The notes beneath the pieces were generated by a model. It was not told the origin of the DNA. It was given only the letters and a program-made list of their open reading frames with translations, and made no database searches. Source: a virus. From it: 39,121 nucleotides of DNA. This document shows positions 3,592 to 31,953 of this stretch, one piece after another. Both the position numbers and the translations under genes were made by a program. The first letter of the stretch is position 1. Each line of letters opens with the position of its first letter. The stretch covers positions 1 through 39,121 of IMG/VR virus record IMGVR_UViG_3300022821_000051. One strand, written 5' to 3'.

Positions 3592-3912
3592 CTATGTGAT
3601 TAATTTATGTACTTTATTGTGGCATCCCCTACACAAAACCATTATTTTAAATGGTTTGTCATAATCTTCATGGTGCATTACCAAATCCTCTTTGATTCCA
3701 CATTTCTGACATTTTACTATTTCTATAATTCCTTTTCTCTTTAAATAATTTAATTTATTCCACATTGAAATCTTTTCTTTATTTTTATCAGCATATTCTT
3801 TCTTTTTCTTTAATATTTTCTCCCTATTTTTAATATAATTCTTTCTGCACCTATTCTTTCCTTTATCTGGATACTTTGCACGATATCTTCTATCTTGTTC
3901 TCTTTTTGTCAT
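3592..3912 (-). CDS. HNH endonuclease-like protein
   Basis: 106 residues. A long basic helical N-terminus (RRYRAKYPDKGKNRCRKNYI and a run of lysines) precedes a compact C-terminal HNH/zinc module: CQKCG (about 69-73), MHHEDYDKP (about 79-87, with the catalytic-type His pair) and CRGCHNKVH (about 94-102). This is a common phage HNH form. It sits alone between structured sequences, as expected for a selfish free-standing nuclease. Target unknown. Confidence 0.8.
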   Translation of the reverse strand: MTKREQDRRYRAKYPDKGKNRCRKNYIKNREKILKKKKEYADKNKEKISMWNKLNYLKRKGIIEIVKCQKCGIKEDLVMHHEDYDKPFKIMVLCRGCHNKVHKLIT

Positions 3913-4056
3913 TTTAACATAATCCCCGTCTTTCCGAGGTGTCAGATGACTTTTGTTGTACTTAGGACTTTATCAACGATTGTCCACAATGGGAACGGCA
4001 TCTTTTACAATGCAATCCCCCAAAATCTAAAAAATAAAAATAATAATTAAGTAATT
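3913..4056 (-). terminator. U-tract after the 4057 gene, then a structured leader
   Basis: Directly after the TAA at 4057 the minus strand reads a T-rich run (4020-4056), a probable archaeal terminator. Below it are short hairpins: GCAT/ATGC, ATTGT/ACAAT and CCTCG/CGGGG (the last at about 3922-3937, just before the HNH ATG). No gene is seen. Confidence 0.45.
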
Positions 4057-4719
4057 CTAAGCAAAGATTGCTGGTTCTTCAAAGCTGAATTCTACAAGAC
4101 TTACATCTTCGTCATCAAAATCTCCTTCATCATAAAGAACATTGTAATGCGCGTAAACATATTTTTTGTAGTCATCATCTGTTCCTTCTAAAAGTTCGTA
4201 TTTAACTTTCAGCTTGAAGTATACATCAGCTTCTTTGTCATCTTCGTCATCAAGACCTAATTGAAGAACCTTCACTTCCATTTCTCTTTCGTCTACATCG
4301 TTAAGTTCATCGAACCCTTCGATTTCAACTTCTAAGAATTCTTCTAATTCATCAAAGTCATCGTCTTCTAATTCTAATCTTGAATCTTCTTCTGATTCTG
4401 CCTCAATCTCATCAATTTCATCTGAGTATAAATCTTCCCACAAGTCATGCATTTCATCATAAACATCTGGAATTTCTACACTTGGAATAACTATTTTTGA
4501 TGCGATTTCTTCAGCACTCGGAACAATTACTTCTTCTTGTGCTGGCAAGTTTGCCAAAACATAAGCTGATGCAACCTTCGCAAGAGAATCTTGGTCTTCC
4601 TCTGAAAAATTAAATTTCTTATTAGAGATCATGCTCATAGAAACAAAGCTCATAACTAAACAAACTATCACTGCTATTGAGATTACCCAAAGAAAAGCGC
4701 TATAATTTTTTTCTGTCAT
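4057..4719 (-). CDS. Membrane-anchored acidic protein
   Basis: 220 residues. One N-terminal transmembrane helix (about residues 7-30, FLWVISIAVIVCLVMSFVSM) is followed by a highly acidic domain with runs such as EAESEEDSRLELEDDDFDEL. Topology is probably N-in with the acidic domain outside. It has a strong ribosome site (GGGAGGT, 8 nt spacing) and its own promoter P3 with a roughly 80-nt structured leader, so high expression is likely. No family is recognised. A role at the host surface or in egress is conceivable but only inferred. Confidence 0.8.
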   Translation of the reverse strand: MTEKNYSAFLWVISIAVIVCLVMSFVSMSMISNKKFNFSEEDQDSLAKVASAYVLANLPAQEEVIVPSAEEIASKIVIPSVEIPDVYDEMHDLWEDLYSDEIDEIEAESEEDSRLELEDDDFDELEEFLEVEIEGFDELNDVDEREMEVKVLQLGLDDEDDKEADVYFKLKVKYELLEGTDDDYKKYVYAHYNVLYDEGDFDDEDVSLVEFSFEEPAIFA

Positions 4720-4927: not shown

Positions 4928-5131
4928 TTATTTTCTATTTAATACTGGTAAATCTCTGATCCCAAATACAGCTAATATTGCTATTGCTGCAGACCATAAT
5001 TCCGCAATTGGAACTACGCCTGTGTTAAGCCAACCAATTAATCCTCCAAGTGCAATTCCTACACCTGCAAGGATCCCGGCCATCTTTGTCTTTGATTTCC
5101 AAAAAGGTTCATTTCCTTTTACTTTTTCCAT
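4928..5131 (-). CDS. Small two-span membrane protein, holin-like
   Basis: 67 residues. A short charged N-terminus (MEKVKGNEPFWKSKTK) precedes two hydrophobic segments, about 17-34 (MAGILAGVGIALGGLIGW) and 42-58 (IAELWSAAIAILAVFGI), and a basic end (RDLPVLNRK). Size and topology match small phage holins and similar proteins of tailed viruses. It is last in the tail operon, where lysis genes often sit, next to an XhlA-like protein. No endolysin is seen, so the lysis role is unproven. Confidence 0.6.
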   Translation of the reverse strand: MEKVKGNEPFWKSKTKMAGILAGVGIALGGLIGWLNTGVVPIAELWSAAIAILAVFGIRDLPVLNRK

Positions 5132-5136
5132 TTTTC

Positions 5137-5324
5137 TTATTTTTTTATTAATTTAGTTACTAACCCTCGACTTATGCCAAGATTTTGAGCAGTTTTTCTT
5201 AAACTTTTTGTTTTTTTATATTCTTTTAAAACAATAGGTTTAAATTTTTCCCTTTGTTTTTTCCTTATTTCCGCAGATTTTTTAATTCCCTCATAAGGAA
5301 TTTTTCCTTTTTTTCTATTGCCAT
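5137..5324 (-). CDS. Small HTH protein reached by a -1 frameshift at A-AAA-AAG
   Basis: The ATG at 5324 shares a base with the upstream stop (TAATG), which fixes the start. The zero frame stops after 19 codons. A canonical -1 slippery heptamer A AAA AAG lies in the correct phase at codons 4-6 (5313-5307). Slipping there gives 62 residues, beginning MAIEKKGKIPYEGIKKSAEI and ending in a clear helix-turn-helix (SLRKTAQNLGISRGLVTKLI). An indel in the A-run would look the same. The function of the HTH protein is unknown. Confidence 0.6.
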
Positions 5325-5581
5325 TATAATGTTGCTAAAACTGCAGCCCCCACAATTACTGCAATAATTCCTAAAATCCACCAAACTATTTTTGATGTGA
5401 TTTTTAATTTTCCTTTAATTTCTCCCAAATCTACCGCCATATTTATTATTTGTTCTTTTGTGACTTTCGCATCATCTTTCATCTCTGTAATATTATGATT
5501 TAATGTTTGAACCATTAATTTAAAATTTTCTTTAAAATCACAAAATTCTGTTTCATTAATATAATTTTTATTTTTTGGCAT
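5324..5581 (-). CDS. XhlA-like coiled-coil membrane protein
   Basis: 86 residues from MPKNKNYINE at 5581. This start overlaps the upstream gene by 14 bases; a longer ORF reaches 5647 but would overlap much more. A helical stretch (about 15-60, FKENFKLMVQTLNHNITEMK and on) is followed by one C-terminal transmembrane segment (about 66-85, IVWWILGIIAVIVGAAVLAT). This is the layout of XhlA-type haemolysin/lysis-associated proteins. It is paired with the holin-like gene 193 bases downstream. A role in membrane disruption is inferred from topology only. Confidence 0.6.
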   Translation of the reverse strand: MPKNKNYINETEFCDFKENFKLMVQTLNHNITEMKDDAKVTKEQIINMAVDLGEIKGKLKITSKIVWWILGIIAVIVGAAVLATL

Positions 5582-5909
5582 TAAACACCTCTTTAATTGT
5601 TGGAAAAAATTCTTTAAAAGGATTTGATTTATTGTAAGTTGCTCCAACTAAAAAACCAACCCAAATCAATAATCCAAAATACATCCCAGTGATTAGAATT
5701 CCAATTGTTATTAAATACATTCCCCACCATTCATGACCAATAAGAAAATCATAAAAATCCCATCTATCCCAAATAAAATAATGTTCAAAAAATAAAAATC
5801 CTCCAATACAAATTATTAAATTAAATTGCTCTCTAATTAATAAGATTGAAATTATAAAAATTATTAAACTTCCAATAAGTTTTCTTGAATAATCTAATCT
5901 GGACCACAT
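5568..5909 (-). CDS. Polytopic membrane protein, 113 aa
   Basis: Three to four hydrophobic spans: IGSLIIFIISILLI, FNLIICIGGFLFF, GMYLITIGILITG and FGLLIWVGFLVGA. The centre is Trp/Tyr/His rich (EHYFIWDRWDFYDF, GHEWWG). No family is recognised. It lies between the tail collar fibre and the XhlA-like gene, at the end of the tail operon. Virus exit or membrane remodelling is possible, but there is no direct sequence support. Confidence 0.65.
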   Translation of the reverse strand: MWSRLDYSRKLIGSLIIFIISILLIREQFNLIICIGGFLFFEHYFIWDRWDFYDFLIGHEWWGMYLITIGILITGMYFGLLIWVGFLVGATYNKSNPFKEFFPTIKEVFNAKK

Positions 5910-8001: not shown

Positions 8002-8565
8002 TTAACACTCCTTCTGCATTTGCTTTCTTCTATGCAGACCTGATTTTAAATGATATTCAGCACAATAAGTAATTCCATTATCTATTTTGAAAGCCAACTC
8101 TGGAAATTCACTTAATTGTTTTATATGATGTGGATGCAATAAAACTCCAATTTTATTATTACAAAATTCACAATTTTTATTTTGGCAAGTAAAATTATCT
8201 CTCAAGAAAATAAACTCTCTCCAGATTTTCCATTTAGAAGAATTTCTTAATAATTTATTTAAGGTGGTAATCCCTCCTTTCCAATTTGGATTATTTTCTT
8301 TAATTATTCTTGAATCTCCTTCTTGAAAACTTGTTTGATTTGATTTCATAATTACTTTTGTTCCTTTATTCCACGCAACATTTTTTTTAATAAAATTATT
8401 TTTCCAACTATATTTTAAAGAACAAGAATGCCCACAGAATTTTCTGGACCTTGATTTAAAAGTCCTAATCTTTTTATCACAATACAAACAATTAGTATAA
8501 CTTCTTTTTATTTCCATTCCAAGATTATGCCCTTTCATGAATCTTCCTTTTGCATCTTTTGCCAT
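8002..8565 (-). CDS. HNH homing-type endonuclease
   Basis: 187 residues. Zinc-finger-like N-terminus (CLYCDKKIRTFKSRSRKFCGHSC, cysteines in CxxC...CxxxC spacing), linker with NPNWKGGIT, then HNH core: TCQNKNCEFCNN, LHPHHIKQL, NGITYCAEYH. The same order (zinc finger, WKGGIT, HNH) occurs in the nuclease inside the methylase gene. It is inserted between the tail-tip and fibre genes, typical of free-standing homing nucleases. The C-terminal CxxxH differs from the usual CxxCH, which may reduce metal binding. Confidence 0.85.
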   Translation of the reverse strand: MAKDAKGRFMKGHNLGMEIKRSYTNCLYCDKKIRTFKSRSRKFCGHSCSLKYSWKNNFIKKNVAWNKGTKVIMKSNQTSFQEGDSRIIKENNPNWKGGITTLNKLLRNSSKWKIWREFIFLRDNFTCQNKNCEFCNNKIGVLLHPHHIKQLSEFPELAFKIDNGITYCAEYHLKSGLHRRKQMQKEC

Positions 8566-24576: not shown

Positions 24577-26832
24577 TTATTTTTTTTCATTTGGAATATA
24601 AACAGCTGAACTTCTGCAGTTGACATGACTCGGAGGGGCTGTTCCTTCCCATCCTGTTATGCTATCTTTAAATTTTCCATTAATTCCAACTACTTGGCCA
24701 TTTAATCTTTTACAGATTCCGCTTGTTCTATCATCAATGTGTGAAGACCATTGTTTTACGAAGTCCTCTCCGCTTTCCTTAACTGCTAATAATCTTCCCT
24801 GGTTCTCTGCCCTATTGGATTCAGTTCGAGCAATCATATCTCCTCTTGTTTTTCCAACATCAAAAACTTTAGTAACTCTCTCATTCAATTTTGTAAGGCT
24901 TTCTCCATTAATAATTCCTCTCTGTAATTCTTGCCTGAGCTTATCTTTCACATCTTTGGTCATTCCTTTAATATTATCAAAAGTATACTCTTGTAAGAAT
25001 TTTACTGCTCCAGTGTTTATCATTAAATTTCTATCCAATTGCTTTTCGGATTTTTCCCAGCCTTCTTCAAATAGATCCTTAATCATCAAATCACTTAAAC
25101 TTTTTATCCCCTCGAATGTTACTAAAACTTCAACAGCCTTTGCGAGATCTTCCACTGCCTTAATTCCGACTATCTTGCTCTGGCCCATTTCTTTTTCTAA
25201 AAGAGCTTTCACTTTCTTTTCGTTTTTACTCATCCATACTGTGATTGATTTGTTTAATTTATCTCCAGTCATTTGCTCGCCTTCCTTTGGAAATAAAACC
25301 TCTTGACTATTAAGCTCTTTTTCTTCTTTCTTTGGCTTAGGTTTTTCTTGTTCAGGTTTTAATCTTGATTGAAGTTTAGATCTCTTATCATTGTCTGCTT
25401 GTTCCTGCTCCTGTGGATTTCCAAAATTAATATTATTTCCTTGCCCTCTTTTTGGATCGTCGTCTCCCCATTCGACTTCATCTAATCCTTCTTCGGCTCT
25501 AACTTCATTTACTGTCTTTAGTCCGATGTCTGTCTGTAATTTGTAAAGATTTGCTTTTTTGGTTTCTTCCTCAACATCAAACATTTTATATTTGTATTTG
25601 ATTCCCTCATAGCCAAATTCACTAATAACTTCCTTGTTCATCTTGTATTCAATCATTCTCAATAATGGGTTGATTGCTCTCTTTCTAAAAATATTTGATT
25701 GAACTATTTGATTTGCCATTCCTTTTGCGTCATCTGAGTATCCTAATTCTGTTGGAGTAACTCCATAGCAAGCCCACACGATCTTTGCCCACCATTTTTG
25801 GCCCTCTAATAATTGAAGTTCTGCATTTGAATATCCAAATTTCTCAAACTTTGGGATCTTACCCACAATAGGCAATTTATGGAACACTTTTTTCCAGTTC
25901 CCTGCTGAGTCTTTTTGCCTTTGGACTTCCATCCATTGTTTTTTGAATTGCTTTATTTCATCTGCGGTTGAACCTTCCAATGCCAACACTCCCTGGGGTA
26001 TTTCATTTTCATTAAAATAAGATAAATTATGTTCGATTGCATAAACTAAGGTTTGGATTGTGTCTGCTAAGTTCTCCACTGGTGACTTTCCGTATATGTT
26101 GTCTGTTCGGCAGTTTTTTTCAAAATAAACAACTTCCCTCTTTCCGAATGGGATTGGTCTTGCGCCTGTAACCCAACCATACTGAAAATATGCCGCCTTT
26201 TCTCTTGCATCCTCTGGATTGATTAATCCTGGCCCATTAAGAATTGATGGCAAGACTTGATTCGCGTTCATTGGATCTGTTGTTCCTAATGCGTCAACTC
26301 CACTGCTTATTGATTCAAAAATAAAATCTTCTCGGTTGGTCATCATTCCGTGTAAGTCTGGATTCTTTGTGAATGTGATTCCATCTCTCGCAACAATTTC
26401 AACCATTTCTTCTTTGGCATTAAAAACTTTAATAAGCACACCAGAATCTACCTCTAAAACATCTCGAATAAATAATCTTTGAATCTGGTCCCAGCTTTCT
26501 TTATTTGTATTTGGGTTCTCAAAAAAATCTTTTACATGCTGAACTTCTTTTTCTTTACTTTCAACTGGATTGCCGTTTTCATCCTCTGCAACAATATTCC
26601 AAGGGATTGCGCAGATTTCATCAATAATTGTTGAGATACACATTTCTACAAATGGTGTCGCTGCTAATCTTCTTATAGTTGGTAAGTCAACATATCTGGG
26701 GTAACCATACGGAGGTTTATAAAAAAAGTTTGGGATTACTGCTTTCTGTAATCCATCTCTTGTTCGTTCACTTACTTGATCTACTGGGGGAACTGTTTTG
26801 TCCTCCTTCTTTTTGAAAAAATTGAATGCCAT
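24577..26832 (-). CDS. Portal protein fused to MuF-like head domain
   Basis: 751 residues from MAFNFFKKKEDKTVPPVDQV; an ORF reaches a TTG at 26874 but this part looks like leader. The N-terminal ~480 residues are a portal (YPRYVDLPTIRRLAATPFVE, VIAIEHNL-type helix, WAKIVWACYGVTPTELGYSD, NIFRKRAINPLLRMIEYKMN). After a charged linker comes a MuF-type domain (about 640-750: MIARTESNRAENQGRLLAVK, WSSHIDDRTSGICKRLNGQ, PPSHVNCRSS). The fusion of portal and minor head protein is known in some siphoviruses. Placed after the large terminase. Confidence 0.9.
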   Translation of the reverse strand: MAFNFFKKKEDKTVPPVDQVSERTRDGLQKAVIPNFFYKPPYGYPRYVDLPTIRRLAATPFVEMCISTIIDEICAIPWNIVAEDENGNPVESKEKEVQHVKDFFENPNTNKESWDQIQRLFIRDVLEVDSGVLIKVFNAKEEMVEIVARDGITFTKNPDLHGMMTNREDFIFESISSGVDALGTTDPMNANQVLPSILNGPGLINPEDAREKAAYFQYGWVTGARPIPFGKREVVYFEKNCRTDNIYGKSPVENLADTIQTLVYAIEHNLSYFNENEIPQGVLALEGSTADEIKQFKKQWMEVQRQKDSAGNWKKVFHKLPIVGKIPKFEKFGYSNAELQLLEGQKWWAKIVWACYGVTPTELGYSDDAKGMANQIVQSNIFRKRAINPLLRMIEYKMNKEVISEFGYEGIKYKYKMFDVEEETKKANLYKLQTDIGLKTVNEVRAEEGLDEVEWGDDDPKRGQGNNINFGNPQEQEQADNDKRSKLQSRLKPEQEKPKPKKEEKELNSQEVLFPKEGEQMTGDKLNKSITVWMSKNEKKVKALLEKEMGQSKIVGIKAVEDLAKAVEVLVTFEGIKSLSDLMIKDLFEEGWEKSEKQLDRNLMINTGAVKFLQEYTFDNIKGMTKDVKDKLRQELQRGIINGESLTKLNERVTKVFDVGKTRGDMIARTESNRAENQGRLLAVKESGEDFVKQWSSHIDDRTSGICKRLNGQVVGINGKFKDSITGWEGTAPPSHVNCRSSAVYIPNEKK

Positions 26833-26906
26833 GATCGTGAGGTATTGACAGCTGAGCCGTAACCCAGCCATCAAGACTTTGCAAGATAATATAATAATAG
26901 CCTTTC

Positions 26907-26937: not shown

Positions 26938-28278
26938 TTAAACAAAATCAAAAACCAGCTTATTTGGGTTGATTTCAAAATACATTCTCATCATGAACAT
27001 ATCTCCGACATCTGTTGAACGCCCGATATTTTCTTTTATCTCATCCTTTGGAATCACATTTAAGGGCACATCTTTCCCGGGATCCTTTTGTTTGATTTGC
27101 TCCAAGTCCTCAATTAATAATTCTCTGGTCTCAACTTTTAAATCTCTCGTGATTCCGATTAATCCTGAATTGACGTGGTTTGCTAATTCGAACCAGCACT
27201 GCGCTTTTAGGTTTTTATAATTGTGCAGAACTTTTTCGTCATCTGTTTCCTTCTTCTTTTTGATTGGGGTTGAGTTTGCCACAAATCCCTTAACTCCATC
27301 TAAGTCCTTCACTAACCCAAATCCAACACCATCTTCATCAATTATGCAATGGCTCCTGGAGATTTCTCTGTCTGTTAGAATCTTATCTAACTCTGTGCTC
27401 GATATGTTATTCATCACAATCACTTCCACACAGAATAATCCTTCCCAAATTCCTATGACTGTCTTATCTCGGCCTCTCCCTGCAACATCCACCACACAGC
27501 GTTTTTCTCCTTTCTCAGGGCTATTTGTGAAGATGTCCATGATTGAGTCATAATTAAATAATTTTGTTGGATCATCATCATATTCGAAGTTACCATATAA
27601 AAGTCTCTCCTTGGAGATCTTGTCCAACTTCTTTAAATTCTCGATGTAATAGGGAGAAATAAACGGATTATCTACCACTAATGCTGGAATGAACTTTCTA
27701 TATTCTTTAATGGATCCATCTTTGCTTGGCTTGTAGAATTCAAAATAAAGGAAATTCTTGGCTGGATTGCTCGCAATTAAAAGTTTTGGGATTAGTCCGA
27801 ACTCATCTAATTTAAATCTTAACCGGCTCATTACAATATTCTTTGCCTTGACTGTGATCTGGCTTGCTTCATCAATAAATGCTCCTGTGAATTCTGTGGA
27901 CCCTAAACTATCAAACTCTGGATCACTTGGATAAGCAAATAAATCTTTTAAATAAACTGTCGAACCATTCCAAAATTTAAGGCATCCTTCCATGGCATTG
28001 TATTTGTAGTCTACATTAATCTTTAAACCAAATTCTCTACACACTTGAAAAAATGTCAATAATGTCGATTCTTTTAATGATTTTAAAACTGCTCGGCCCA
28101 TCAGCCATCTGCTTCCGGGGTATTGAATACAATTAATAATCAACCAGACGCATCCTAAGTAAGACTTTCCTCCGCCTGCTCCTCCGCCATAAAATATCTC
28201 TGTATGGATTCTATTCTGAAGAACTTCCAGCGCCTGTTCCTGTCTCTTGCTCGGTTTCCACTTTATTGTTATCATCAT
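26938..28278 (-). CDS. Terminase large subunit
   Basis: 446 residues. ATPase part: Walker A GGGAGGGKS (31-39), Walker B with catalytic carboxylate GAFIDEASQ (about 132-140), and motif III IASNP. Nuclease part (RNase H fold): VVDVAGRGRDKT, CIIDEDGVGFG and STDVGDMFMM provide the metal-binding Asp residues. Drives DNA packaging at the portal. The ATG lies inside the 3' end of the small subunit gene (68-base overlap). Full length for the family. Confidence 0.95.
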   Translation of the reverse strand: MMITIKWKPSKRQEQALEVLQNRIHTEIFYGGGAGGGKSYLGCVWLIINCIQYPGSRWLMGRAVLKSLKESTLLTFFQVCREFGLKINVDYKYNAMEGCLKFWNGSTVYLKDLFAYPSDPEFDSLGSTEFTGAFIDEASQITVKAKNIVMSRLRFKLDEFGLIPKLLIASNPAKNFLYFEFYKPSKDGSIKEYRKFIPALVVDNPFISPYYIENLKKLDKISKERLLYGNFEYDDDPTKLFNYDSIMDIFTNSPEKGEKRCVVDVAGRGRDKTVIGIWEGLFCVEVIVMNNISSTELDKILTDREISRSHCIIDEDGVGFGLVKDLDGVKGFVANSTPIKKKKETDDEKVLHNYKNLKAQCWFELANHVNSGLIGITRDLKVETRELLIEDLEQIKQKDPGKDVPLNVIPKDEIKENIGRSTDVGDMFMMRMYFEINPNKLVFDFV

Positions 28279-28630
28279 CAGCCTTTTCGATTAGGATTCT
28301 TTTTCTTTGGTCGTTTATGTCAACTTCTTTTCTCTCGAAGTATCCCCTGTCTTTGTTTTTAGTCTTATTAAAAAATATTGTTGCAGAACTATTCCCATCT
28401 TTCATTAATTTTAATAATAAATGCTCTCCAAAATCTTTTAATTCATATTTTGCCTCATTTACAAAATAATTATAATTTTCATCTTCTCTTAACCACCTAT
28501 AATGGGTTTCTCTGCTAATCCCCACTTGGCTACATGCGTTAGAAACAATCCCCAATGCAGTATTTAATGCTTTAATCATTAAGGCTTTCTTGCCTCTTGG
28601 TTTTATGTGCTTTTTGTCATCTTTTGTCAT
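28211..28630 (-). CDS. Terminase small subunit
   Basis: 139 residues. N-terminal HTH (ALGIVSNACSQVGISRETHY, about 27-46) and the typical following WLREDENYNYFVNEAKYEL and HLLLKLMKDGNSSATIFFNK pattern of phage small terminases; an acidic/Gly-Ser tail ends it. Recognises the packaging site and delivers DNA to the large subunit. ATGA overlap with the cytosine methylase gene upstream. The packaging site itself could not be located. Confidence 0.85.
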   Translation of the reverse strand: MTKDDKKHIKPRGKKALMIKALNTALGIVSNACSQVGISRETHYRWLREDENYNYFVNEAKYELKDFGEHLLLKLMKDGNSSATIFFNKTKNKDRGYFERKEVDINDQRKRILIEKADDDNNKVETEQETGTGAGSSSE

Positions 28631-30417
28631 ATCAATTTCTCCGCGATGGCTTTAATTACATTGACCGTAACTGCATTTCCCATCATTTTATATCTTTGAG
28701 TGTCTGAAAAACCAAAAGTATATCCAAACCTTGATTTAATCTTCAATTTCAATGAATTGTTTATCTTTGTTTCTTTTTGAATGCACCCAATTATGGCACT
28801 TATTACATAAGAGAATGAGATTCTCCACTTTGAATCTGAATTTTTTATATTCAAATGGTTTGATGTGATGTATTTCAAATGTCCTCTGAGTGTGATTAAA
28901 TCTTTCTTTACATCTTTGGCAGGTTGCATCATCTCGTTTCCAAATAACTTTACGAATATCTTTCCATTCTTTACTTGAATCAAAGACTCCTCGTTCTGAA
29001 GTAATTCCTCCTTTCCAAGATTTATTATTTTCTCGCATATTGAATTTATGCCAACAATCATTTGAGCAAAATCTTCTTTCTTTATATGTTGGAGAAACGA
29101 GTCTTGGCTTTCCACATAATTCACAAATTCTAATGATTTTTCTTGATTGTTTATCACTATTTTTTCTTCCTCGCAATTTATAAGCACATTCTCTTGAACA
29201 GGTTTGTTTATTTCTTGTTTCAAATTCCTTTCCACAGATGACACATTTTTGTTTATGTCTTCTTTTTCTACATTCCCAGCAACACTTAGCAACTTGAGAT
29301 TTTGGCTTTCCACATTTACATAACTCTTTTGAAGGTCTAATTGGCATATATTATCTTGAATTTGTAGGTTTATATAACTTTCGTATTGAGGAAATCCTTG
29401 TAGTCTTTCGCATTCTGTTGGAGTTAGTCTTCTTATTTTCATTTGTTCTTTTATCTTTGGACTCCAATTATTAAGAGGGCAGATTACACCTTTTTCTCCA
29501 TACACTCTGTTTGCTTGCCCAATTTCTGGTCTGGAGTCGTTTGTATCATATCCTATTGCTACTTTTGTCATAACTCCTCCGCCTGTTCCTGTTGGGATTG
29601 TTGGGCTGATTCCTTCTGTTCCATAGACTCTCCTAATAGATTCATTTCTTTTTCTCCAAGTTTCGCTATTGAGGTTTCCGATAACTTCAATACTTTTGAT
29701 ATATTCTTTTGAACTCCCTTGCCTTCCGATTGCTTCGGTGAGTGTGGGATGGACAACCCCTTCTGAATTAAATTGTTGCTCTGTTTCTCTGAAAGGTAAT
29801 ATTTCTGGTCGGGGTTCTCCTCTAAGACTTCCGATAATGAATACCCTCTCTCTGTTCTGGGGAACTCCGAAAAATTTGCTGTTAAGAACCATCCATTGAG
29901 TTCTATACCCCAATTCTTCCAGCGTTTGAATAATGACTTTGAAAGTTTCCCCTTTGTTGTGATTGAGTAACCCTTTGACATTTTCAAGGAGTATAAGTTT
30001 AGGTCTTTTAATTTTAAGAATTCTTGCAACCTCAAAAAACATAGTCCCTCTGGTATCTTCGAAGCCTCGCCGTTTTCCAGCGATTGAGAATGCTTGACAA
30101 GGAAATCCTCCACACAACATATCAAAGTCTGGTAATTCATTTGGATCGATCTTTGTGCAGTCTCCCCAATTTTTAACTGATGGGAACTTTTTGTTGAGGA
30201 GTTCACTTGCGTATTTGTCAATTTCGGAACACCCAATGCAACGAAATGTGGACTTCTGTCCAGTGAAAAACAATGTTCCTTGCTCTTTAGAAGTCCTGTT
30301 CCCCCTTTCCCTGTCTTGCTGGATCTCGGAAAGTGATTTAAGATTATTGGCTCCAAGTCCAAGTTCAAATCCTCCGACTCCTGAGAACATTGAGAAGTAT
30401 CTGATTTCATTTGTCAT
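28627..30417 (-). CDS. DNA cytosine-5 methyltransferase interrupted by an HNH insertion
   Basis: 596 residues. Motif I FSGVGGFELGL (10-20), motif IV GGFPCQAFSIAG (Cys nucleophile near 106), motif VI ENVKG, motif VIII QNRERVF, the recognition part, then motif IX RRLTPTECERLQGFP (about 330-344) and motif X SDTQRYKMMGNAV (about 570-582). These two normally lie close together, but here about 220 codons (29385-28726) intervene, housing an HNH gene in another frame. The methylase frame stays open through it. Solitary methylase, no restriction partner. The small terminase follows. Confidence 0.9.
   Translation of the reverse strand: MTNEIRYFSMFSGVGGFELGLGANNLKSLSEIQQDRERGNRTSKEQGTLFFTGQKSTFRCIGCSEIDKYASELLNKKFPSVKNWGDCTKIDPNELPDFDMLCGGFPCQAFSIAGKRRGFEDTRGTMFFEVARILKIKRPKLILLENVKGLLNHNKGETFKVIIQTLEELGYRTQWMVLNSKFFGVPQNRERVFIIGSLRGEPRPEILPFRETEQQFNSEGVVHPTLTEAIGRQGSSKEYIKSIEVIGNLNSETWRKRNESIRRVYGTEGISPTIPTGTGGGVMTKVAIGYDTNDSRPEIGQANRVYGEKGVICPLNNWSPKIKEQMKIRRLTPTECERLQGFPQYESYINLQIQDNICQLDLQKSYVNVESQNLKLLSVAGNVEKEDINKNVSSVERNLKQEINKPVQENVLINCEEEKIVINNQEKSLEFVNYVESQDSFLQHIKKEDFAQMIVGINSICEKIINLGKEELLQNEESLIQVKNGKIFVKLFGNEMMQPAKDVKKDLITLRGHLKYITSNHLNIKNSDSKWRISFSYVISAIIGCIQKETKINNSLKLKIKSRFGYTFGFSDTQRYKMMGNAVTVNVIKAIAEKLI
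28736..29347 (-). CDS. HNH endonuclease overprinted inside the methylase gene
   Basis: 203 residues in a frame different from the methylase: several CxxC zinc fingers (CGKPKSQVAKCCWEC, CVICGKEFETRNKQTCSREC, ICELCGKPRL, CSNDCW), the linker NNKSWKGGIT, and an HNH core (ATCQRCKERF, FEIHHIKPFE, LILLCNKCHNWVH). Same architecture as the 8002-8565 nuclease. It covers nearly all of the insertion that separates methylase motifs IX and X. Likely a homing-type nuclease that inserts at a conserved site. Confidence 0.9.
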   Translation of the reverse strand: MPIRPSKELCKCGKPKSQVAKCCWECRKRRHKQKCVICGKEFETRNKQTCSRECAYKLRGRKNSDKQSRKIIRICELCGKPRLVSPTYKERRFCSNDCWHKFNMRENNKSWKGGITSERGVFDSSKEWKDIRKVIWKRDDATCQRCKERFNHTQRTFEIHHIKPFEYKKFRFKVENLILLCNKCHNWVHSKRNKDKQFIEIED

Positions 30418-30673
30418 TTTTCACTCCAAATTGTGTATTTTTGTCAACTTTGTCCACTTTTACTCGCAAATCCGACCGCGCAACTTGACAATTATGTTCT
30501 ATTTTGTCGAAAAGTCTCCCAATCATGCCCTCTATTTGGTTTATTCTATCCTTTTTGTGTGAATTAAACTCCTTTTTCACAACAAATGGCATAAAAATAC
30601 ATTCTGGTTCTTCTTCATCTAAGCTTAAATTAAATTCTTCTTTTGTCCAATCAAACTTCCAATCACTATTCAT
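30407..30673 (-). CDS. Hypothetical protein, 88 aa
   Basis: Starts MNSDWKFDWTKEEFNLSLDE at 30673, fixed by ATGA overlap with the adenine methylase. Acidic N-terminus then a helical, charged C-terminus (NQIEGMIGRLFDKIEHNCQV). No family is recognised. It lies between the two methylase genes and overlaps the start of the cytosine methylase by 11 bases. It may be an accessory of the methylases, but nothing in the sequence shows it. Confidence 0.65.
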   Translation of the reverse strand: MNSDWKFDWTKEEFNLSLDEEEPECIFMPFVVKKEFNSHKKDRINQIEGMIGRLFDKIEHNCQVARSDLRVKVDKVDKNTQFGVKNDK

Positions 30674-31953
30674 AATTTCACTCCCGTATTTCCAGTGGAG
30701 ATTTCCCACCTTTCAATTATGTGACTGCAAAATACTGGATCTAATTCGATTGTGTAGCAATTTCTGTTTTTTTCCTCACAGGCCATCAATGTGCTTCCAC
30801 TTCCTGCAAAGGGGTCCAATATGTTATCTCCTATCTTTGAGCTGTTCACGATTGCTCTGGCAGCCAATTTGGTTGGTTTTTGGGTTGGATGGATGTAGTT
30901 TTGGGATTTTTCTTTCTTTATGTCCCACACCGTGCTTTCTTTCTTGATTTTCTTAATAAATTTTATCATGTCTTCTTTTTCCATTTTGTCTGGATCTATT
31001 TGTGTTAATATTGTTTTGTTTGACCGTGTTCCGTAAAATAATGGGCTTTCGTTGATTCTACAAGCAAAAAATAAAGGTTCATGACACCAGTGATAGTGTG
31101 CTCTGCCTAAAACGTGATGCTTATTCCAGATTAATTGTTGCTTAACCATAAAATTGGCCTCATTTAGTGCCTTCTCGAAGATTATTTGGTTCGAGCTTGA
31201 ATGAAAAACATATAAGGATCCATTTCTTATTAAAACTTGATTGACCTGTATAAAACTATCTCTAATCAATGCAAATAAATCATCTCCTCTCAATTCGTCT
31301 CCCTCAATCATATCCCACTTTCTATCATTTCCTCGCTTGGGGCTTCTTCTTCCTTGATTGGTCATCCCCTGGTAACTCACGACGTATGGAGGATCTGTAA
31401 AAACCAAGTGAATGTCTTTCTTTTCGAGTAATTTTAAATAAGTTTCTTCTTTTGTTGCATCTGCGCACATAATTCTATGTTTTCCGAGTTGATAAATATC
31501 CCCTATTTTAATCTCGTATTTTGGTTCTTTCTTGCCTATTGTAAAATCTTCTTGTTCATTCATTACCTTGTCAATCTCTGCCTCACTGAATCCGGTAAAG
31601 GACAAATCTGTCATCGTTTCAAACTCTCCTTTCAATAAATCCCAATCCCAATCACTCTTTTCTGCTGACTTGTTGTCCATGATTCTGAATGCTTTTACTT
31701 GTTCTGGTATTAAATCTTCCACCCAAATCACTGGCGCTTCCTGGAGTCCTAATTTGATTGCTGCTCTTAGTCTTGTGTGACCGGCTATGATCTCATTGTT
31801 TTTGTCGAGAATAATTGGGTTTTTGAATCCGAATTCCTTAATGGATTTTGCTACCATATCTACTGCTTTGTCGTTTTTACGGGGATTCTTTGCATAAGGA
31901 ACTATCTCTGCGATTGGGATATAGTCTATTGTGATTTTTGTATCTTTTGCCAT
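30670..31953 (-). CDS. ParB-domain N6-adenine DNA methyltransferase
   Basis: 427 residues. N-terminal ParB/sulfiredoxin-like domain with NEIIAGHTRLRAAIKLGL (about 51-68). C-terminal methylase of beta order: DPPYVVSYQG (catalytic motif IV, about 184-193) precedes the SAM-binding motif DPFAGSGSTLMACE (about 380-393). Such ParB-methylase fusions are common in phages. With the cytosine methylase it may protect viral DNA or affect host regulation. No restriction enzyme is encoded nearby. Confidence 0.92.
   Translation of the reverse strand: MAKDTKITIDYIPIAEIVPYAKNPRKNDKAVDMVAKSIKEFGFKNPIILDKNNEIIAGHTRLRAAIKLGLQEAPVIWVEDLIPEQVKAFRIMDNKSAEKSDWDWDLLKGEFETMTDLSFTGFSEAEIDKVMNEQEDFTIGKKEPKYEIKIGDIYQLGKHRIMCADATKEETYLKLLEKKDIHLVFTDPPYVVSYQGMTNQGRRSPKRGNDRKWDMIEGDELRGDDLFALIRDSFIQVNQVLIRNGSLYVFHSSSNQIIFEKALNEANFMVKQQLIWNKHHVLGRAHYHWCHEPLFFACRINESPLFYGTRSNKTILTQIDPDKMEKEDMIKFIKKIKKESTVWDIKKEKSQNYIHPTQKPTKLAARAIVNSSKIGDNILDPFAGSGSTLMACEEKNRNCYTIELDPVFCSHIIERWEISTGNTGVKL

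Follow-up and report, generated by a model that had tools for sequence, protein, structure and literature searches.

A C5-cytosine methylase gene of a virus contains an HNH endonuclease gene in a second reading frame and stays open across it

The window, that is, the whole 39,121-nt stretch of DNA analysed (IMG/VR virus record IMGVR_UViG_3300022821_000051), carries on its minus strand a C5-cytosine DNA methylase gene, inside which an HNH endonuclease gene is read in another frame. The features of the locus are listed below; family A comprises the HNH gene of the window and its nested relatives.

28627..30417, minus strand: C5-cytosine DNA methylase ORF of 596 aa, open across the insert, with motif IX before the insert and motif X after it
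29386..29430, minus strand: DNA coding for motif IX, the conserved spot adjoined by every family-A copy
28726..29385, minus strand: insertion of 660 nt, or 220 methylase-frame codons, relative to the uninterrupted homologues L003 and L007-L010
29348..29385, minus strand: leader of the insert, 38 nt, upstream of the HNH start codon; a TATAAT-like box is absent in the window copy
28736..29347, minus strand: HNH endonuclease gene of 203 aa (612 nt including the stop), in frame +2 relative to the methylase
28627..28725, minus strand: methylase motif X and C-terminus after the insert, in the methylase frame; 17 motif X codons were compared with L002

The 596-aa methylase ORF matched PF00145 with an E value of 1e-81 (Pfam). 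When it was aligned with the uninterrupted homologues L003 and L007-L010, the insert was found to correspond to methylase residues 345-564, flanked by motif IX (RLTPTECERLQGFP) on one side and motif X (SDTQRYKMMGNAVT) on the other. In these homologues, the sequence RLQGFP-DNWT-EGFSDTQRYK is continuous at the insert position; in a longer form, the junction reads RLTPxECERLQGFP-DNWTEGFSDTQRYKMMGNAVT. The original prediction had placed 660 nt between motifs IX and X at 28726-29385, and the alignment returned exactly these borders. The ORF listing and the Pfam search likewise confirmed that an intact HNH gene of 612 nt lies there in another frame and that the methylase frame has no stop. A second contig (L001) was identical in sequence. 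The neighbourhood is that of an ordinary tailed-phage packaging region, with the genes for the large terminase (26938-28278) and the portal (24577-26874) downstream of the methylase on the same strand. The gene immediately upstream of the C5 methylase (30670-31953, minus strand) encodes another DNA methyltransferase, the N-terminal part of which is ParB-like.

The nested HNH gene starts with ATG and lies wholly within the methylase ORF, so that just 48 nt of the insert (38 before and 10 after) fall outside it. Its protein matched PF01844 (E=4e-9, Pfam) and contains CxxC zinc-finger pairs together with an HNH domain, in which the catalytic residues and Cys ligands are intact (the invariant Cys, H160, H161, N176 and H185). 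The AlphaFold model of the protein had a mean pLDDT of 81. The best relative in the PDB by sequence was 6me0, the HNH end of a group II intron maturase, and the best fold match was the GVE2 HNH protein (5h0m). The window also holds a free-standing HNH gene (8002-8565, minus strand), the product of which is 28% identical to the nested HNH protein over 163 aligned positions.

Across the 203 HNH codons, 0 stops were found in the methylase frame and 33 in the third frame. When the nested gene's own synonymous codons were shuffled, the probability of 0 stops was 0.003; under a model of the codon usage of the phage, 6.7 stops were expected in the methylase frame (P=5e-5). Among 3,008 stretches of 203 codons drawn from the other long genes of the phage, none had an open alternative frame, the mean number of stops per stretch being 17 and 19 in the two alternative frames. 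The free-standing HNH gene at 8002-8565, which served as an internal control, had 13 and 24 stops in its alternative frames.

Scans with the family-A HNH protein gave L107-L120, later L192, L203 and L204, and a bacterial contig, L121, which belongs to a Bacteroidetes metagenome-assembled genome. With near-identical contigs counted once, family A consists of the window and 15 further loci (L002, L107, L109-L113, L115, L117, L119-L121, L192, L203 and L204), on contigs of 33% to 56% G+C. Every copy adjoins the end of motif IX and uses one and the same frame, and in each the methylase frame crosses the insert without a stop. Among named phages, no relative of the family-A HNH exceeded approximately 32% identity across the greater part of its length. 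The host methylases diverge widely, down to 23% identity, and in L120 the methylase is circularly permuted, with motif I coming after motif X. The HNH copy of L120 (4998-5609) was seen to contain an in-frame TGA or other stop. In 45 of the 45 pairs compared, the HNH identity was higher than the host methylase identity. Moreover, methylases approximately 56-74% like that of the window are without the insert, and others near 30% have it. Since the HNH proteins are more alike than their hosts and the insert is patchily present, the element appears, from these comparisons, to have moved horizontally from one methylase to another, arriving each time at the same place.

The arrangement was also found with other HNH types. 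Genes of the HNH_3 type are nested after motif IX with an open host frame in L123-L130. L132, L133, L135, L137, L139, L141 and L142 carry theirs behind motif VIII (the second site), again with the host frame open. In the same scan, all homologues outside methylases had stops in both other frames. The label 'nested' had been set by openness in that scan, and the genes were reclassed by their flanking methylase motifs: of the genes preceded by motif IV and followed by motif IX or X, 14 of 14 were open. In L006, a different HNH gene takes the other relative frame, and 0 stops compare with 9-15 expected. In L113, a single 879-aa methylase ORF holds two different nested HNH genes (3603-4223 and 4998-5609), one at each site. 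Cultured phages of Mycobacterium (Schatzie, KashFlow, Thibault and others) have a C5 methylase with the HNH_3 form at the second site; in Schatzie (L187, 1989-3512), the host frame is open through the nested gene.

When 30 nested HNH genes were pooled, the methylase frame contained 0 stops in 5,932 codons, compared with 92 expected after synonymous codons were shuffled within each of the 30 genes; the loci are related, and the pooled count is not a probability of independent events. Nevertheless, common descent alone is an insufficient account on this comparison, because the HNH genes are of several types, occupy two sites and use both of the relative frames. We conclude from these sequences that the open methylase frame through the insert is real and is neither chance nor an artefact. 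The original prediction had considered such a frame unlikely by chance, which is borne out by the shuffles, the stretches of the phage's other genes and the 30 nested loci. Its suggestion of selection for two open frames finds strong support in the comparison across many insertions.

It could be argued that the insertion splits or kills the methylase, leaving two pieces or no product, and that the open frame is a coincidence or a relic. The methylase frame is indeed broken by the HNH insertion in L013, and in L082 and L100 the C5 methylase is split over two ORFs around other HNH insertions. However, all family-A copies are open across far diverged methylases, other HNH groups are open too, and the results of the synonymous shuffles do not fit a coincidence. 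Furthermore, when 17 codons of motif X downstream of the insert were compared between the window and L002, 9 synonymous changes and 0 non-synonymous ones were counted; on this comparison, motif X is under purifying selection in the same frame as the methylase. A split or dead methylase is, for these reasons, an improbable explanation. The HNH genes of L082 (5671-6225) and L100 (5542-6090) are of another type and are inserted after motif VIII; there, the N-terminal methylase frame is open through the HNH gene and ends soon after it, and the C-terminal part is a separate ORF.

Phage homing HNH genes are commonly carried by group I introns. An undescribed or very small intron, removed from the RNA with the HNH gene as its passenger, would be compatible with such a precedent. 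An intron was also suspected by the annotators of Schatzie in a comparable nested case, the C5 methylase of the public record bearing the remark 'coding region not determined; unable to determine intron boundaries'. In the window, however, only the 48 nt outside the HNH gene would be available to it, no match to the insert was obtained from Rfam at E<=1, and the RNA of the insert folded no better than its shuffles (z=0.44). A group I or II ribozyme core was not found by either approach, in agreement with the earlier statement that the extra sequence is too little for a ribozyme. Splicing would also leave the 0 stops in 5,932 host-frame codons without a reason, since an excised RNA needs no stop-free frame. 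Therefore, the removal of the insertion from RNA, which the original prediction had offered as an alternative, was unsupported, and we regard an intron as very unlikely.

We then considered what the methylase frame of the insert encodes. In the AlphaFold model, the pLDDT of this segment was 24-52, and that of the methylase core was mostly 70-95; the product is probably a floppy loop, as judged from this model. The conserved frame is that of the HNH gene, which shows 67% identity and in which the catalytic residues and the Cys residues do not vary; in the methylase frame approximately half of the positions are conserved. Some sequence conservation in an open methylase frame is what would be expected if the segment were a functional methylase domain on which the HNH frame had been overprinted. 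Such a domain is nonetheless absent from close homologues, the HNH frame is the better conserved one, the HNH protein has free-standing relatives, and the loop was predicted without confidence. The original prediction had named a native methylase domain as the finding that would overturn it; homologues without the segment and a fold prediction without confidence gave no such result, and this reading is highly unlikely. The excess of third-position conservation in the nested HNH genes was 0.045-0.088 at 40-55% identity, slightly above shuffled sequences, compared with 0.000 in free-standing HNH genes and 0.088 in the host methylase. Any selection that acts on the amino acids of the loop, apart from the avoidance of stops, would thus be weak at most, its signal in these alignments not being separable from that of the host gene itself.

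The codon-precise insertion at a conserved motif resembles that of an intein, and the segment might leave at the protein level as an unorthodox intein or be skipped by ribosome bypassing. Nevertheless, the Pfam matches of the 596-aa protein included no intein family, and invariant intein-type junction residues are missing from family A, whereas bypassing would not need a stop-free frame. We hold this pair of possibilities to be extremely unlikely. A conventional intein, with a splicing domain in the host frame, a Cys/Ser start and an Asn plus Cys/Ser/Thr junction, was rejected on the same Pfam result and on the family-A junction residues, which are of another type.

The start of the nested gene was compared across family A. 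The hexamer ending 6 nt before the HNH ATG averaged 4.5 of 6 matches to TATAAT, with 8 of 13 copies scoring 5 or 6, and no other spacing came close. The same spacing gave 1.7 matches for background ATGs and 1.6 for free-standing HNH genes. The box is mostly preceded by TGn, and L192 has TATAAT at the same 6-nt spacing. The peak is also present in the nested HNH_3-type genes at the motif IX site (3.4 matches), and L133, at the site after motif VIII, has an exact TATAAT 6 nt before its HNH ATG. A sigma-70 -10 box at this distance would put the start of transcription at the ATG. Since the -10-like box lies 6 nt upstream of the ATG, a leaderless HNH mRNA is predicted in most family-A relatives, the window's copy excepted. 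In the window, the conserved place is occupied by TCAAGA and lacks a TATAAT-like box, a promoter scan of 28500-29600 returned fewer sites than in shuffles, and no Shine-Dalgarno-like sequence was evident for the HNH start. Part of the signal could come from conservation of the residues, often V-I-I, that the methylase frame encodes over the box. The Ile codon ATA over the box is retained even in L113 and L115, where ATA is a minority codon.

Taken together, we consider it probable that the locus represents a mobile HNH homing-endonuclease gene which is tolerated unspliced in a C5 methylase and whose stop-free second frame is read through as a loop. The HNH element would invade C5-methylase genes at the DNA for motif IX and stay in the RNA without splicing, its second reading frame having evolved to be stop-free. 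Ribosomes on the methylase message would continue through the insert, adding approximately 220 residues between motifs IX and X; motif X would remain joined to the methylase after this loop, and the protein may keep its methylase activity. Such read-through translation is likely the simplest reason for the stop-free methylase frame. The HNH protein would be made separately, from its own start codon within the insert, and in most relatives a leaderless HNH mRNA would arise from the TGnTATAAT-like promoter element, which is placed 6 nt upstream of the ATG. By cutting uninvaded methylase genes, which would be repaired from the invaded copy, the HNH protein may spread the element. The nested HNH gene is probably selfish.

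An arrangement of this kind has been known since 2025. The 'ShiLan domain' of Mycobacterium phage ShiLan gp65 and its relatives (PMC11855218, PMC9957025) is an HNH hidden out of frame inside methylases of mycobacteriophages, the host frame being open, and PMC11855218 also gives Pacc40 gp60 as a second, single case. As in the window, the ShiLan kind has an out-of-frame HNH ORF in a methylase gene with a stop-free host frame, no recognisable intron or intein, and a scattered distribution suggesting mobility. However, ShiLan gp65 is an N6/N4 methylase (PF01555; HNH ORF from 4510 of L122), whereas the host in the window is a C5 methylase (PF00145). The ShiLan HNH is of another sequence type with a GTG start, compared with PF01844, several CxxC pairs and an ATG start in the window; it is confined to mycobacteriophages, whereas the family of the window occupies the motif IX site on contigs from 33% to 56% G+C. 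In Pacc40 gp60, too, an HNH-like ORF is nested in a methylase gene whose own frame is open, but the methylase, the position and the HNH are all different. By these sequence comparisons, the window is of the ShiLan kind but belongs to a separate family in a different methylase class, and C5-methylase family A, as the wider family, appears new. In the literature examined, we found no prior description of family A and its motif IX site, nor of the second site, of the double invasion, of statistical evidence that the frame is maintained or of the -10-like box.

Other homing systems share part of these features. Intron-borne or free-standing phage HNH proteins of the I-HmuI type and GVE2 HNH (5h0m) have the HNH fold and a presumed homing role in common with the nested protein, but are found in ribozymes or between genes, whereas the window has no ribozyme and a preserved host frame. 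Inteins with homing endonucleases are also tolerated in-frame invaders of conserved motifs; unlike them, the window's insert has no splicing domain, its nuclease is read in another frame, and its product is presumably kept in the host protein. We propose tentatively, and with slightly more doubt than belief, that homing genes which preserve the host frame offer selfish nucleases a third general way, next to introns and inteins, of residing within coding DNA, several distinct HNH types having become stop-free in the host frame at two C5-methylase sites and many of them having a promoter box for a leaderless mRNA. If so, the box and the leaderless mRNA would answer how such hidden nucleases are expressed; leaderless HNH mRNA is a concrete prediction for a question left open in PMC11855218.

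What had been a curiosity of some ten mycobacteriophages emerges from the present comparison as a recurrent and statistically secure arrangement that is shared by very different phages and methylases. The family suggests a way for an invader to occupy a gene without any splicing, and it provides a natural experiment on the amount of foreign peptide that an enzyme tolerates. It also explains why cultured phages such as Schatzie and KashFlow have been difficult to annotate; with their nested C5-methylase/HNH_3 cases, the idea becomes testable in Mycobacterium smegmatis.

The first half of the methylase gene is overlapped by a further ORF, 280 codons long (29568-30410, minus strand, frame +1; phrog_16143). 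It was open beyond synonymous shuffles in the close methylases L002-L004, L006, L007, L009, L010, L033 and L107, but was not kept open in L117 and L119. Its sequence 'LSEVLEENPDQKYYLSEK' is similar to a motif that the C5 methylases of L119 and L121 read in the methylase frame.
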